Of a stretch of 38,712 bases of DNA, positions 12,405 through 34,132 are shown piece by piece. Made by a program: the position numbers and the translations under genes. Within the stretch, counting starts at the first letter, position 1. The number at the start of each line of letters is the position of its first letter. The notes under the pieces were generated by a model. It was not told where the DNA came from. It did not search any database and worked only from the letters and a program-made list of their open reading frames with translations. The stretch is from assembly GCF_020850895.1 (NCBI RefSeq), contig NZ_JADZDS010000081.1, forward strand, positions 1-38,712. Direction: 5' to 3'. The DNA comes from Thermomonas sp. (GTDB taxonomy: Bacteria; Pseudomonadota; Gammaproteobacteria; Xanthomonadales; Xanthomonadaceae).

Positions 12405-13630
12405 GTGATCGCTACCGGGTAGGAGCCCAGCACCCGCACCTCATCGCCCAATCCACCGATCTCGTCCAGCGCATCCTTGAGCGGCGCCTCATCGCAATGG
12501 CCCGCCACGTCGATGAAGAAGGCGTACTGCCAACGATGGCCGTGCTCCGGACGCGATTCGATCCGGTTCATGCTGATGCCACGCCGCGCCAGCGGTTCCA
12601 GCACGCCATACAGCGCGCCCGGGCGGTCACGGATGAACACCAGCAGGGAGGTGCGGTCATTGCCGGACGGCGGGAACGGCTGCCGCCCGATGACCAGGAA
12701 GCGCGTGGTGTTGTCGCTGCGGTCCTCGATCGGGCCTGCGATCTTTTTCAGCCCGTACACCAGTGCGGCCGATTCGCCAGCAATCGCCGCGGCGTCGTCG
12801 GAATTACGCGCACGGCGTGCGCCTTCGGCATTGCTGGCCACCGGCAATTTTTCCACCCCCGGCAAGTTGGTGCGCAGCCAGCCCGCGGTCTGTGCCAGTG
12901 CCTGTGGATGACCGAAGATGCGCTCGACGTCCTCGATGTGGCCGCTGCGCGACAGCAGGTATTGGTGCACGCGCAGCTCGACCTCGCCGCAGATGCGCAG
13001 CGGCGAGCTCAGGAACATGTCCAAGGTCACCTGGATCGTGCCCTGCCCGGAATTTTCCACCGGCACCACGCCGAAATCGGCGTGTCCCGCCGCCACTTCC
13101 TGGAACACTTCCTCGATGCTGGCCAGCGGCAGGCCGTGCGCGGAATGGCCGAAATGCTTGTGCACCGCCTGCTGGCTGAAGGTGCCTTCGGGGCCGAGGT
13201 AGCCGATTTTCAGCGGCTCCTGCTGGGCGAGGCAGGCCGACATCACCTCGCGGAACAGCCGCACAAGGACCTCGTCCGAGAGCGGGCCGGCATTGCGATC
13301 CACCACCCGTCGCAGCACCTGGGCCTCGCGCTCGGGGCGGTAGTAGTCCACCGCCGCCGCCAGCTTGCCCTTGGCCTTGCCGACCTGGTGCGCCCAGCGT
13401 GCGCGCTCGGCGATCAGGCTCTGGATCTGTTGGTCGATGCCGTCGATCTGCGCACGGACCTGCGAGAGATCGGGCTTGGCCTCGCTTGCCGACGGCTTCT
13501 TTCGTTCGTCACTCCCGCGCAAGCGGGAGTCCATGGACATTGCCTCAACCGCACCAACGTCCTTGGATCCCCGCTTGCGCGGGGATGACGAGTTGGGTGC
13601 GTCTGGCGACTTGCCTTTTTTCTTAGCCAT
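12401..13630 (-). CDS. pheA: Bifunctional chorismate mutase / prephenate dehydratase
   Basis: The P-protein converts chorismate to prephenate and then phenylpyruvate. An AroQ-type mutase domain spans about residues 53-140 ([20 protein letters not shown]). The dehydratase domain spans about 140-320 ([28 protein letters not shown]). A C-terminal ACT regulatory domain follows ([12 protein letters not shown], then ESRP), the site of feedback inhibition by phenylalanine. Residues about 14-43 are an in-frame palindromic repeat (SSPRKRGS then SRLRGSDE), inserted between a basic N-terminus and the mutase domain. The ATG at 13630 overlaps the serC stop (ATGGCTAA). Length is 409 residues, longer than usual only because of the repeat. 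Confidence 0.96.
13506..13590. repeat. In-frame inverted dimer repeat in pheA
   Basis: Two perfect hairpins face each other. ACTCCCGC-GCAA-GCGGGAGT is at 13511-13530, and ATCCCCGC-TTGC-GCGGGGAT is at 13567-13586. Reverse-complementing the second reproduces the first with few changes, including flanks CGTCA and TCCA-GG, so each is one copy of a roughly 30-bp unit in opposite orientation. The unit is unrelated to the repeat in metH. It is read in frame near the PheA N-terminus. Confidence 0.88.
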
Positions 13631-14915: not shown

Positions 14916-15075
14916 GCCCAGGGAAACGCTGATTGAGTCGGCGTTGCCTGCCGACCATGAATGGTCGGCCGTGGATCGATCACCGAAGTGATTGATCCGC
15001 GTGCGCTGCGTCCGGGCATGCACCGGACGCAGCGTGTGCTGACACGTCCAGGAGGGACTTGGTCAGCATGGTCCT
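14916..15075 (+). repeat. Structured ~155-bp repeat, copy A
   Basis: This is one of three copies of a structured intergenic element. In order it contains a GCCGACCAT/ATGGTCGGC hairpin (14950-14969) and a 14-bp helix with loop CGAA. Next is a long GC-rich helix built on GCTGCGTCCGG/CCGGACGCAGC around a GCATGC loop. Last is a nested GCTGAC..GTCC/GGAC..GTCAGC helix. It ends at the stop codon of the PHA-system gene and lies in the same orientation as copy B. No ORF or transposase is inside. Confidence 0.85.
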
Positions 15076-15346
15076 AGAACCGATCGTCCAGTACGCGGCG
15101 GATTTCAGCCTCGATCGGATCCTTGAACATCGCCGCGAAGAAGCCCAGCTTCGCACGCACGTTCAGTGCGTCCTTCTCCAGTTCGATGTGCCCATCCACC
15201 CCCGGGCGCGAAAAATTCAGGACATCGCCGTCCCATCCGTATTCGATCCCGAAACGTTCCGCGAGCTTCGCCGCCACCTCGTCCACAGCTTCACGCGCCC
15301 TGGCCCGGGACAGGGAATGACGATGTCGTATATCGATGCGTGACAT
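15074..15346 (-). CDS. Polyhydroxyalkanoic acid system family protein
   Basis: This 90-residue protein resembles the small polyhydroxyalkanoic acid (PHA) system family (PHA_gran_rgn). It starts MSRIDIRHRHSLSRARAREAVDEVAAKLAERFG, followed by YGWDGDVLNFSRPGVDGHIEL and LGFFAAMFKDPIEAEIRRVLDDRF. Family members are found beside PHA granule genes; their molecular role is not known. It stands alone on the minus strand and is bracketed by two direct copies (A and B) of the structured repeat, copy A touching its stop codon. An in-frame extension upstream would run through copy B and is not credible, so I start at MSRIDI. Confidence 0.88.
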   Translation of the reverse strand: MSRIDIRHRHSLSRARAREAVDEVAAKLAERFGIEYGWDGDVLNFSRPGVDGHIELEKDALNVRAKLGFFAAMFKDPIEAEIRRVLDDRF

Positions 15347-15468
15347 GGGAGTCCGAAACATGGGTGGAAAATGCGACGCAAGGCCAACCCCATGCGCCTT
15401 CGGCCATGCTAACAGCCCGATGCAAGTACACAGAAGCCCCCCAGACTGCAGCGCAGTCGCCCGGGAAT

Positions 15469-15624
15469 GCCCAAGGCCACGCTTGGTCGGCGTTGCCTGC
15501 CGACCATGGATGGCCGGCCACGGATCGATCACCGACGTGATTGATCCGCGTGAGCGGCGTCCGGGCATGCGCCGGACGCTGCGTGTGCTGACACGTCCAG
15601 GAGGGACTTGTTCAGCATGGTCCT
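15469..15624 (+). repeat. Structured ~155-bp repeat, copy B
   Basis: This second copy is in direct orientation to copy A and nearly identical from GCGTTGCCTGCCGACCATG onward. Differences fall mostly in helix arms or loops. Examples are T-to-C at pair 3 of the second helix, which turns a G-T wobble into G-C, and GCTGCGTCC to GCGGCGTCC in the third. It lies upstream of the PHA-system gene on one side and the FHA gene on the other. Confidence 0.85.
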
Positions 15625-15767
15625 GACTGCCCAAGGCGCATTTGATCAATTCAGTGGTTCCCGCCAGCGATGGATGACCGGCTGACAACGCCTGGATGGA
15701 GGGTGATCGTCTTCACACTTGGGCATATCCCGACCCAGCCCGCACGCAACCTGCTAGATTGACCGCG
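15625..15767. other. FHA gene upstream region
   Basis: This is the leader region between repeat copy B and the FHA gene. A -10-like TAGATT lies only eight bases before the ATG, with no matching -35. I see no ORF here. Confidence 0.35.
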
Positions 15768-24214: not shown

Positions 24215-24351
24215 GAAATTGCACGCCGCGATTTGCAACGCGTCGCAGGCCACCCGACCGGGAAGTGCATGGTACGGCTGCGGGACGTCGCGGGTCACCC
24301 GGTGGAAAGTGCATGGCGCGGGCTGCGATGCGTCGCGGGTCGCCCGGTCGG
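24215..24351 (+). repeat. Three imperfect 43-47-bp tandem units
   Basis: Units start at about 24215, 24262 and 24305. Each opens with GAA-(A)-GTGCATGG or a variant and closes with GTCGCGGGTCRCCCGGT or a variant. Units 2 and 3 are the closest pair. Confidence 0.7.
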
Positions 24352-26618: not shown

Positions 26619-28064
26619 ATGAGCCGCACGCCCGCCACCCGCACCCTGACGGTTGCACTGCTAGGCGCCCTGCTTGCCGTGGGTTATGTGTCAACGGCCT
26701 TTGCACAGCAGGACCAGAACCAGCGATTCCGCCGTGGTGATCGACAGCAGAATTCCAGCCAGAGCCAGTCCAACGACAGCGGCAATTCGAACAGCGACCA
26801 AGAGTCGTCACGCCGCAGCAACGAAAATGCAGGCTTTCTTCGTGGCGAGCCGTCCCCAGCCCGCAATGAAGGCGGCGAGGCGCGTCGGGAGATGCCGACT
26901 CGCTCCGAACCGCAGGCCCCGGTGTTCCAGCGCCAGGACCGCCCGCAGCGGCAGGATTTCCCGCGCCAGCAGCGTGACGCCAGCGAGGACCGCCAGGCCC
27001 CGGTGTTCCAGCGCCAGGACCGCCCGCAGCGTCAGGATTTCCCGCGTCAGCAGCGTGATGCCAGCGAGGACCGCCAAGCCCCGGTGTTCCAGCGCCAGGA
27101 CCGCCCGCAGCGTCAGGATTTCCCGCGTCAGCAGCGTGACGCCAGCGAGGACCGCCAGGCCCCGGTGTTCCAGCGCCAGGACCGCCCGCAGCGCCAGGAT
27201 TTCCCGCGTCAGCAGCGTGATGGCCGCGAAGACCGCCAGGCCCCGGTGTTCCAGCGCCAAGACCGTCCGGAACGCCCGGAAATCCAGCGCCCGCAACGCC
27301 CAGGCCGCGAAGACCGGCAAGCCCCGGTATTCCAGCGCCAAGACCGTCCCGGCCAGACGCCGCGCCCGGAACTCCTGCGTCCAAATCGCCCGGAACCGCA
27401 GCGCCCGGTCGCGCAGCTTCCTCGTCCGGAACTCCAGCGCCCCGTCGTCAACCCCCCGCCGATGCCACGCGTGCAGCAGCAGCGTCGCGTGGACCAGCAG
27501 GTCCAGATGCACAACCAGTGGCAACGCCAGCAGTCCTATCAGCGCTCGCAGTACAACCGCTACGATGCGCAGTATCACCGTCACAATCGGCATGAAGGCT
27601 CGCGCTACATGCGTGATTACTGGCGGCGCTGGCTGGCCCAGCAGTTGCTCTGGAGGTCCTACCGCTTCGACTACTACAACAACGGTTTCTTCTACACCCC
27701 GTACAACTACCGCTATCGCTACGGCAACGGCTGGGGCTACACCAACAGCTACGGCATCAGCTTCCTGCAGCAGGCAATCCGTGACGGCTATCAGGAAGGG
27801 TTGTACGCCGGCCGCGCCGATCGCAGGGACCACTGGCGATTCGACTACCGCAACAGCTTCGGCTACATGGATGGCAGCTACGGCTATTACGGTTACTACA
27901 CCGACCTTGGAACGTACCAGTACTACTTCCGCCAAGGCTTCGAGCGCGGTTACCGCGATGGCTACTACGACCGCTACCAGTACGGTCGCTACGACTATAA
28001 CAGCGGTTCGGCCACGATCCTCCCAGCGTTCCTTGCAACCATCCTCACCGTGGCGATGTTCTGA
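26619..28064 (+). CDS. Secreted protein with 27-residue tandem repeats and Tyr-rich C-terminus
   Basis: This 481-residue protein has a signal peptide (LTVALLGALLAVGYVSTAFAQ) and a Gln/Ser/Asn-rich stretch. Six tandem 27-residue units follow from residue 100, each starting APVFQRQDRP and most containing QRQDFPRQQRDASEDRQ. The first four or five are nearly identical; later ones turn into PERP/PQRP-rich variants. After a Pro/Arg/Gln region, the C-terminal 180 residues are rich in Tyr, Gly and Arg. They carry two related segments, GYQEGLYAGRADR and GFERGYRDGYYDR. The protein is strongly basic and probably disordered in its middle. I do not recognise a family; surface or extracellular polymer binding is only a guess. 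A strong terminator follows at 28091. Confidence 0.82.
   Translation: MSRTPATRTLTVALLGALLAVGYVSTAFAQQDQNQRFRRGDRQQNSSQSQSNDSGNSNSDQESSRRSNENAGFLRGEPSPARNEGGEARREMPTRSEPQAPVFQRQDRPQRQDFPRQQRDASEDRQAPVFQRQDRPQRQDFPRQQRDASEDRQAPVFQRQDRPQRQDFPRQQRDASEDRQAPVFQRQDRPQRQDFPRQQRDGREDRQAPVFQRQDRPERPEIQRPQRPGREDRQAPVFQRQDRPGQTPRPELLRPNRPEPQRPVAQLPRPELQRPVVNPPPMPRVQQQRRVDQQVQMHNQWQRQQSYQRSQYNRYDAQYHRHNRHEGSRYMRDYWRRWLAQQLLWRSYRFDYYNNGFFYTPYNYRYRYGNGWGYTNSYGISFLQQAIRDGYQEGLYAGRADRRDHWRFDYRNSFGYMDGSYGYYGYYTDLGTYQYYFRQGFERGYRDGYYDRYQYGRYDYNSGSATILPAFLATILTVAMF
26916..27401 (+). repeat. Six 81-bp tandem repeats (coding)
   Basis: Units begin at 26916, 26997, 27078, 27159, 27240 and 27321, exactly 81 bases apart, so the frame is kept. 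The first four differ by only a few bases, whereas the last two have drifted. Near-identity at DNA level, silent sites included, points to recent expansion or homogenisation. Confidence 0.92.
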
Positions 28065-33217: not shown

Positions 33218-33454
33218 TCAATCCTCATCCGCGTCACCGGAGTCCTCAGGACCGTCGACATGCCCCAGCAGGTCGCCCGGTTCGCAGCGTAATGCCGCGC
33301 AAAGCCTTGCCAGCGTGCGGAAGCGAATGCCCTTGACCTTGCCGCTGCGAAACAGTGACATCTGGGTTTCGCTGAGGCCCACCCGCGCGGCCAGTTCACG
33401 CGCGGTCATGCCGCGTTTGGCCAGCATCGCATCGAGCGTCACCTGGATCGGCAT
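33218..33454 (-). CDS. XRE family helix-turn-helix regulator (YozG-like)
   Basis: This 78-residue small Cro/XRE-type DNA-binding protein has its helix-turn-helix near residues 16-45 (MTARELAARVGLSETQMSLFRSGK, then IRFRTLARLCAALRCEPGDLL) and an acidic tail. Its ATG overlaps the stop of the upstream DUF2975 gene by one base (TGATG), so the two are translated together. This pairing of a short XRE protein with a DUF2975 membrane protein recurs in many bacteria; the working hypothesis is that the membrane partner modulates the regulator. Confidence 0.92.
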   Translation of the reverse strand: MPIQVTLDAMLAKRGMTARELAARVGLSETQMSLFRSGKVKGIRFRTLARLCAALRCEPGDLLGHVDGPEDSGDADED

Positions 33455-33966
33455 CAGAGAATCTCGTCCAGTTCGGCCTGCACCGCGCGCGCTCGGTCGA
33501 TGACCCTCGCCAGCAACACCAGCGCCGCGCCGACCACGCCCAGCACGATCCCGGACAAGTCGAAATAGGCGTAGCCGCCCTGTCCGCCTTCGATCCAGCG
33601 CGACAGGTTGGTGATCGCGAACACGCTGAGCAAGGCACCGATCAGCACGCCGATGCCGATCTGGCGCAACGCCCGACCCAAGGTGGCGTGGAACAGGCGG
33701 CCCACGGCGAGATCCGCCAGCGCACGCTGCACCGCCCACAACGCCCACAGATAGCCCAGCCCCGGCAGCAGGCGCACCAGCCGCAACAACAGCAGTGTTC
33801 CGTCATCGGTGCTCGCGGCTGAAGGTCGCCACGGCAAGCCGCTCGCGCCCAACGCCAGCAGCAGGAACAAGCCGGCGAACACCACCAGGGTGGCCACGCG
33901 CAGCAGGCGGCACTGGTGACGGAAACGGGCGTGGTCAGGTGCGGGCATGGGCGGGAATCCGGGCAT
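33454..33966 (-). CDS. DUF2975 family membrane protein
   Basis: This 170-residue inner-membrane protein has four hydrophobic segments: near residues 22-43, 63-82, 100-120 and 138-158. It matches DUF2975 in size, topology and pairing with a downstream XRE gene. The ATG at 33966 is used; the ATG at 33948 is equally possible, as neither has a strong ribosome site. The gene begins 15 bases from structured repeat copy C and points away from the ABC operon at 34212. Its promoter must therefore lie within or beyond the repeat. Confidence 0.82.
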   Translation of the reverse strand: MPGFPPMPAPDHARFRHQCRLLRVATLVVFAGLFLLLALGASGLPWRPSAASTDDGTLLLLRLVRLLPGLGYLWALWAVQRALADLAVGRLFHATLGRALRQIGIGVLIGALLSVFAITNLSRWIEGGQGGYAYFDLSGIVLGVVGAALVLLARVIDRARAVQAELDEIL

Positions 33967-33980
33967 GAATCTCGGGCTGC

Positions 33981-34132
33981 GCTGAACAAGTCCATCCAGG
34001 ACTTGTCAGCGCGCGCACCGTCCGGCACATGTCCGGACGGCGCTCTCGGGAATCAATCACTTGGGTGACTGGTTCCCGGCCGATCGTCCATGGTCGGCAG
34101 GCAACGCCTAATAAATCAACGTTGCCCTAGGC
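33981..34132 (-). repeat. Structured ~155-bp repeat, copy C (inverted)
   Basis: This third copy is on the opposite strand, more diverged, and lies between the XRE/DUF2975 unit and the ABC operon. Read on the minus strand it keeps all the helices of copies A and B. Changes come in pairs: G-C to A-T at pair 5 of the 14-bp helix, G-C to C-G in the third helix, and GCATGC to ACATGT in its loop. It also has a clear outer stem GGCAACG/CGTTGCC. Confidence 0.82.

Follow-up and report, generated by a model that had tools for sequence, protein, structure and literature searches.

Bacterial MITEs are usually viewed as stripped insertion sequences (ISs) that require their ends alone, and repeats of the NEMIS type are known to fold end to end. 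YTAR is the reported target duplication of IS5 (PMC10359306), MITE transcripts are known to form stable stem-loops (PMC10969869), and REPs are GTAG/CGTC-tagged units of 20-40 bp that are tied to RAYT enzymes and, in the case of GTAG REPs, give stop codons to adjacent open reading frames (ORFs; PMC3733652). A review describes ANGGAN hexaloops as the target of RsmE, CAGGA(U/A/C)G as the repeat of CsrB, RUACARGGAUGU as the SELEX consensus and 10-63 nt as the reported CsrA bridging distance (PMC7652899). Finally, gyrA was listed in 2010 among the probable RNAs of Pseudomonas (PMC2864571); the corresponding Rfam family is RF01740.

Three copies (A, B and C) of an element that can be compared with these systems lie in the window, i.e., the whole stretch of 38,712 nucleotides of Thermomonas sp. 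DNA that was analysed. With IS5-family MITEs the element shares the absence of a conserved frame, terminal repeats of IS5-family ISs, 4-bp YTAR duplications and presence in many copies. Unlike these MITEs, it adopts a five-hairpin fold that covaries across many genera, also beyond the class, its terminal repeats fold locally and not together, and one core is combined with several end sequences. The decoy RNAs CsrB and RsmX/Y/Z resemble the element in the GGA in hairpin loops, the C-G-closed ANGGAN hexaloop and the CAGGA(U/A/C)G motif, yet the element has two sites per copy, is mobile and multicopy, and its copies A and B lack promoter-like sites in their vicinity. REP/BIME, NEMIS/Correia, ERIC and RUP repeats are likewise extragenic and palindromic. 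RF01740 corresponds to H4 and H5, with the GUGAG linker, in the same order; in contrast to the element, GGA is irregularly kept at gyrA loci.

Table 1. Positions of the element copies, the hairpins and flanks of copy A, and the adjoining ORFs in the window.
Feature	Position	Strand	Details
Copy A, whole element	14922..15073	+	152 bp; covariance model R1, 151.4 bits, E 2.3e-41
H1 of copy A	14922..14948	+	left terminal repeat and its own inverted copy; model alignment
H2 of copy A	14950..14969	+	7-bp stem, loop ATGAAT; model alignment
H3 of copy A	14970..15001	+	14-bp stem, loop CGAA; model alignment, loop table
H4 of copy A	15005..15033	+	11-bp stem, loop GCATGCA; model alignment
H5 of copy A	15038..15067	+	12-bp stem that extends into the right terminal repeat; GGA loop, AGGAG; model alignment
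Left flank of copy A, CCAG	14918..14921	+	4-bp target duplication, decayed on this side; sequence
Right flank of copy A, CTAG	15074..15077	+	YTAR target; gives TAG stop to the minus-strand gene
ORF with PHA_gran_rgn domain	15074..15688	-	Pfam PF09650, E 2.8e-28; TIGR02610
Copy B, whole element	15475..15622	+	148 bp, H1 shorter by 4 bp; R1, 136.0 bits, E 4.9e-37
DUF2975 ORF	33454..33966	-	Pfam PF11188, E 8.8e-7
Copy C, whole element	33975..34126	-	152 bp; R1, 151.1 bits, E 2.7e-41

An initial annotation of the window had described three copies of a repeat that folds into four helices in a common order. All three copies were recovered with slightly shifted borders; there are five hairpins instead of four, H1 being the extra first one. 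On the plus strand, hairpins of 11 bp (H1), 7 bp (H2), 14 bp (H3), 11 bp (H4) and 12 bp (H5) are followed by the end TTGCC. In H1, the left terminal repeat GGCAACGCTGA pairs with an inverted copy of itself, while the outer part of H5 belongs to the right terminal repeat, and thus each terminal repeat folds locally. The loops of H2 and H5 read ATGGAT and AGGAG in copy B, and ATGGAC and TGGAT in copy C; the H2 loop of copy A has lost the GGA (ATGAAT vs the family consensus ANGGAN). The H3 loop is a GNRA in 73 of the 132 family-level matches. Copy C represents a subfamily other than that of copies A and B, and the differences previously listed for it were found again by eye: in the 14-bp helix, pair 3 changes from T-G to G-C and pair 5 from G-C to A-T, with one mismatch, and in the following helix a single G-C becomes C-G, while the loop changes from GCATGC to ACATGT.

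The length of the element is 150-153 bp in 114/132 family-level, 38/45 class-level and 13/20 phylum-sample copies, with an overall range of 128-175 bp. At about 152 bp it is, as had been stated, far longer than REP units, for which 20-40 bp are given (PMC3733652). The statement that it contains no ORF needs qualification. Out of the six frames, even the one with the most uninterrupted copies reads through only 55/132, 14/45 and 5/20 of them, respectively; since no frame is open through most copies, there is no conserved reading frame, but accidental ORFs do run across copies. In the Thermomonas genome, deletion variants that keep both ends consist either of H1-H2-H5 (e.g., L313, L314 and L318) or of H4-H5 with a shortened H1 (e.g., L304-L308 and L319). 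These subfamilies lack hairpins and yet comprise several copies each, and the inner hairpins are therefore dispensable for movement. At two places, a different repeat, of the CAGAGCCTGCC...GATCCGGGGATGG type, lies within the H5 loop region or takes its place (L312:1230-1360 and L315:1279-1464). A hybrid copy (L289:1212-1362) combines a left end of the GGAACCTC type with a right end of the ATTGCC type, and subfamilies may thus recombine.

The covariance model R1, derived from 17 copies in eleven genomes, retrieved relatives in genomes of the family, the class and a phylum sample. In the own genome (2.53 Mb), at least 90 R1 matches at E <= 0.001 were obtained upon scoring the best 150 of 1905 candidates, a number far above chance expectation. 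By hand count these correspond to about 81 places, after nine matches that overlap a stronger one on the opposite strand were dropped; such double-strand overlaps occur because the hairpins are palindromic, and the weakest of the 81 places may be chance matches. BLAST with copy A gave at least 49 matches in the same genome (40 of 80 candidates scored). At the family level, the element was present in 21/149 genomes by BLAST and in 60/247 genomes (25/54 genera) by R1; the corresponding R1 figures are 51/321 genomes (40/243 genera) for the class and 43/398 genomes (17/213 genera) for the phylum sample, where 39 of the 43 lie outside the class. These counts include the own genome. The absence of a match from 355 phylum-sample genomes speaks in favour of the specificity of R1. 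In the wide searches, scoring was limited to the best 5 to 12 candidates of each genome, and the copy numbers there are therefore lower bounds. A scan of genome contigs for 17-mers yielded 86 stretches, seven of which were inspected: four, all from the MAG SZAS-112, hold the element (one of them shortened) and three do not. The plasmid collection searched gave no element match.

The 132 family-level matches comprise 102 from 24 genomes and 30 from the own genome, including four weak second matches; the 45 lower-scoring own-genome matches entered only one strand-asymmetry count. The class set contains 48 matches, of which the three weakest were dropped for flanks, loops and strand counts and kept for covariation and RNAalifold. 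Copies taken from other genomes are the best-scoring among the matches listed. Identical sequences were counted once in the family flank and loop counts, the family right-end count, and the strand-asymmetry, loop-conservation and consensus counts.

Flanks and ends make it almost certain that the element is transposable and non-autonomous. Of the 132 family-level matches (25 genomes), 39 have the same 4-mer on both sides, compared to 7.5 upon shuffling (sd 2.4, maximum 16, 2000 shuffles), and the consensus of these flanks is YTAR on both sides. Identical flanking 4-mers were also found in 21/45 class-level copies and in 7/20 copies of the phylum sample, or 12/20 if the right border is allowed a one-base shift. 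In the window, copies B and C are flanked by CCAA/CTGA and CTAG/CGAG, respectively. A genome of the same genus (G107) harbours a 1160-bp IS (L330) with GGAAGGTCTGAACAAC ends and TTAG on either side, the transposase of which is of the IS5 family (NF033581, 355 bits, cut-off 140); a further case is L359 in another genome of the genus. Among the 48 transposase loci scanned, 13 feature GGANNNTCTG ends between YTAR duplicates, L330 and L358 being the same place. The 16-base IS end is matched at 13 or more positions by 89/197 element right ends vs 1/17,730 internal positions, and element ends of the GGAANNTCTGA type are terminal repeats held in common with IS5-family ISs. For the own subfamily, with its GGCAACGCTGA ends, no corresponding IS was found; the only PF01609 match of the own genome is a contig-end fragment with the right end GTTCAGACCTTCC-CTAA, and two copy-rich genomes of the genus (G051 and G183) gave no PF01609 transposase match. 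That a transposase acts on the element is an inference.

R1 produced only five weak matches at the 48 transposase loci, the best at 21.4 bits, and therefore no IS was seen to carry the fold itself. The ends of most copies seen resemble GGAANNTCTGA or GGCAACGCTGA. Others are CAGGCTGTTGAAAA-like (L411, L435, L427 and L428, with CTAG on either side of L435) or GAGAGCTTGTGAA-like (L403 and L406), or read GAGCCTGTCGCA (L448 and L460). In copies with swapped ends, an inverted copy again adjoins the left end and H2-H5 are retained; the H4 tip GTCCGGACATGCGCCGGAC is common to L411 and family copies such as L036 and L037. Left and right ends show a similarity of 7.94/12 vs 7.13 for shuffled pairs (maximum 7.38, 1000 shuffles), an excess which is only modest, as it should be if most ends are alike.

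Many copies of the element are located at stop codons. In 62/132 family-level matches, a border has within 8 bp the stop codon of an open frame that spans 100 or more codons, vs 7% of 2,609 random flank positions, a control that was matched neither for YTAR nor for intergenic location, and a stop codon is near the border in 21/45 class-level copies. Copy A is an example, as the CTAG on its right contains the stop codon of the PHA_gran_rgn gene. The YTAR target together with the purging of insertions inside genes may account for this bias. No clear bias was found in the orientation towards the neighbouring gene (28 left and 41 right in the family, 15 and 13 in the class), and a crude gene caller gave 75:75, i.e., no preference.

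The proposal that pairing-preserving substitutions reflect selection on structure is supported by covariation across the family, the class and the phylum sample, and the scores of the further copies exceed both shuffled and slid controls. In a MAFFT alignment of 17 sequences from 11 genomes, for which the structure was assigned by the analyst, 24/55 pairs are changed on both sides (score 0.299 vs 0.125 shuffled and at most 0.079 slid). Among 46 distinct class-level rows, this applies to 53/55 pairs and 586 cells (0.659 vs 0.172 shuffled and at most 0.132 slid), and among 20 phylum-sample copies, 17 of which come from outside the class, to 48/55 pairs (0.607 vs 0.190 shuffled and at most 0.093 slid). 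The latter two alignments were made to the model and hence lean towards it; RNAalifold on the model-fitted class-level rows returned essentially the same five helices. The picture within the own genome is different: in 26 BLAST-chosen copies and part-copies, single-sided changes are strand-symmetric (26 G-T vs 29 A-C), and no Watson-Crick compensatory double change occurs. This set represents 26 of 30 own loci, with L020, L024 (copy C), L027 and L030 excluded. Given that such doubles are missing from own sister copies, the covariation lies between subfamilies and lineages, and single copies, with symmetric changes only, look unmaintained. In other genomes, some copies differ from the genome consensus by isolated paired changes (mixed subfamilies). 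Our reading is that copies decay neutrally after insertion while selection acts on the source lineages, which argues against rapid template-switch correction as well as against the idea that a host function maintains every copy. Selection on source copies has very probably maintained the fold.

The structural evidence does not settle whether RNA or a DNA hairpin is the selected form. The plus strand folds better than the minus strand in 118/132, 41/45 and 18/20 copies (RNA parameters, model-selected copies), and G-T changes outnumber A-C changes by 71:46 in model-selected copies (p 0.026; unpaired columns 44:52), by 58:30 in a further such set and by 16:4 for the genome consensus. Both the G-T excess and the better fold of the plus strand may be partly due to the model's own preference. 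As a proof of RNA, strand asymmetry was discarded: it is suggestive in model-chosen copies and absent in the BLAST-chosen own copies. In the absence of expression data, RNA rather than DNA seems to us the somewhat likelier functional form.

Judged by their sequence, the loops of H2 and H5 match the CsrA/RsmA recognition motif. The H2 loop is ANGGAN in 112/132 family-level and 42/45 class-level copies, and occurs as CANGGANG in 16/20 phylum-sample copies. The H5 loop is xGGAx in 117/132 family-level copies and, by alignment, in 34/45 class-level copies (in several others GGA is displaced by one base); in the phylum sample, the H5 region of 17/20 copies contains GGA. Since R1 was trained on GGA-bearing copies, a bias control was performed on 60 near-invariant training positions: across 43 copies from the class, conservation is 0.98-1.00 at the six GGA positions and averages 0.665 at the other 54. 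Only four of the latter reach 0.98, three of them being the C, A and G of C-ANGGAN-G. The motif CANGGANG occurs 49 times on the plus strand of these 43 copies and never on the minus strand, and ACARGGATGT is found in 11 of them, likewise never on the minus strand. In linear sequence, about 92 nt separate the two GGA sites, with the closed stems H3 and H4 in between, as compared to the published bridging distance of 10-63 nt; the stems of the element are also longer than those preferred in SELEX (PMC7652899). The own genome contains one csrA match (E 3.1e-26). The co-occurrence with csrA, which is present in 48/51 element-bearing vs 224/270 other class genomes, was dropped as a test since it does not discriminate. 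No binding data are available, and CsrA stands an even chance of being the partner of the element RNA.

No described family was found that accounts for the element. The initial annotation would have been refuted by a match to an already described repeat or an IS-derived family; this condition is half fulfilled, as the ends are indeed of the IS5 type, but no described repeat or Rfam family was found to cover the element, and its two suggestions, a structured RNA or a mobile element, are supported at once by YTAR duplications, IS5-type ends, copy number and covariation. The length, the YTAR duplications and the IS5-type ends do not fit a REP/RAYT identity. No description of the element was found in the open-licence literature (preprints being outside its coverage), and the window gave no Rfam match at the gathering score. 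A permissive Rfam search on element copies returned only sub-threshold RF01740 matches and one 21-bit naRNA4 match on the minus strand (E 4.5); outside the elements it returned tRNA, asX1 and a weak Plastid-ycf2 match. The asX1 sRNA (RF02235) is above the gathering score at L239:7-121. The nearest Rfam model, RF01740, covers the 3' half of the element (H4 and H5) and matches 11 places of the own genome at 29.1-41.5 bits, below the gathering score of 45; two matches in the window score 30.6 and 29.5 bits. Over 229 class genomes, RF01740 matches were found in the own genome only, which weakens the link to the gyrA RNA. RF01740 is present in all six Pseudomonas genomes tried, and R1 scores at most 15.0 bits at Pseudomonas gyrA loci. 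A second RF01740 match in Pseudomonas veronii (L400:1515-1641, 62.1 bits), upstream of a gene which we take to be dnaJ, scores 21.9 bits with R1 (E 3.4e-5) and looks like a decayed element copy. A shared origin of the element and RF01740 is a lead, not a result.

The reading that best explains these data, to which we give even credence as a whole, is that of an IS5-mobilised element, the transcript of which is a CsrA-binding RNA; there is direct evidence for mobility and for the conserved fold, while transcription and CsrA binding are both inferred. A MITE-class element of about 152 bp would be moved in trans by IS5-family transposases, which are presumed to recognise the terminal repeats and to insert the element at YTAR, with stop codons of YTAR form as favoured surviving insertion sites. 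Unlike ordinary MITEs, the propagating copies keep the demonstrated five-hairpin fold. The plus strand would most likely be transcribed by read-through and work as a folded RNA. On the strength of motif and conservation, the H2 and H5 loops are predicted to be a pair of CsrA/RsmA sites by which a transcribed copy can bind CsrA. A CsrA-bound copy might then titrate the protein as a decoy, or be a target in cis if it is part of the leader or tail of the neighbouring gene.

The fold might instead be irrelevant. The element would then be an ordinary MITE, the hairpins of which are by-products of palindromic DNA matched by template-switch (quasi-palindrome) correction, with neither fold nor RNA having a function. 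Templated mutation can perfect palindromes, changes between own sister copies are symmetric, the loss of hairpins has not kept subfamilies from spreading, and some copies elsewhere differ from their genome consensus mainly by a paired change, as one templated event would give. Yet templated correction predicts paired changes between sister copies, and the 26 own copies and part-copies contain none; moreover, neither the near-constant length of 150-153 bp despite complete stem change nor the conservation of the loops above that of the stems is explained, and we regard this possibility as unlikely. The loops also bear on a role of the fold as single-stranded DNA or cruciform, the latter having been allowed for by the initial annotation. 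The reader of such a fold could be, e.g., a nucleoid protein, a transposase or an enzyme of the replication fork, by analogy with REP and IS200/IS605 systems. GNA and GNNA loops are unusually stable in DNA as well, and the H5 (GGA) and H3 (GCAA) loops fit these types. However, ends, target duplications and the matching IS point to the DDE-type IS5 family, which acts on double-stranded ends, and the plus strand folds better in most copies (with the reservation that RNA parameters and model-selected copies were used); a DNA fold therefore appears improbable to us.

The clustering at gene ends raises the further possibility of an mRNA tail element without a CsrA role, the hairpins of which, placed at stop codons, protect the upstream transcripts or are themselves processed, in the manner of REP, ERIC or NEMIS repeats. 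The stop codons near the border, in 62/132 family-level matches vs 7% at random and in 21/45 class-level copies, are what such an element would show. Both orientations are about equally frequent, however, the stop bias may come from YTAR and purging, no terminator-like site was found in copies A and B (copy C was outside the scan), and the conservation of the loops is again left unexplained; we give this account little credence.

If the best-supported reading, an IS5-mobilised element with a CsrA-binding transcript, is extended to a family of selfish transposable CsrA/RsmA-binding RNAs throughout the Pseudomonadota, including end swapping, host load and leader takeover, it becomes doubtful in its entirety and is offered only tentatively. 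A five-hairpin core with two GGA loops would be carried by any available YTAR-targeting IS family through swapping of the terminal hairpins, many copies (about 81 here) would burden the host with CsrA sites, and leaders might have arisen from some copies after decay, RF01740 gyrA RNA and the Pseudomonas dnaJ locus being candidates. The interior of the element is a folded molecule, the stems of which change completely between genera while the lengths and two loops stay nearly fixed; the question of whether small transposons carry functional RNAs thus becomes directly testable. If CsrA binding proves true, mobile DNA would be a source from which sites for a global regulator can be drawn, with plasmids that carry CsrA-like proteins (RsmQ; PMC9928087) as a parallel on the protein side. 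The element could also explain the origin of some leaders annotated as candidate structured RNAs.

Within the window, two element copies of the same orientation flank the PHA_gran_rgn gene (14922-15622). The PHA_gran_rgn domain comprises residues 118-203 of the 204-residue ORF, and the real start of the gene is probably near 15345, which places copy B upstream of the likely start. No promoter-like or terminator-like sites were detected in or near copies A and B (copy C was outside the scan). The right end of copy C is located 8 bp from the first ATG of the DUF2975 ORF in sense orientation. Copy C would thus lie in the 5' leader of this ORF if the first ATG or a later start is used, and it is a candidate for element-based leader control (33966-34126). 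The window features other repeats as well: a palindrome with two 37-bp arms of the CACTCCCGCGCAAGCGGGAGTCC type (13506-13591), probably a separate repeat family; an 81-bp tandem repeat of 5.5 copies within long ORFs (26909-27351), probably a repetitive protein segment; and a 45-bp tandem repeat of 2.4 copies (24241-24348).
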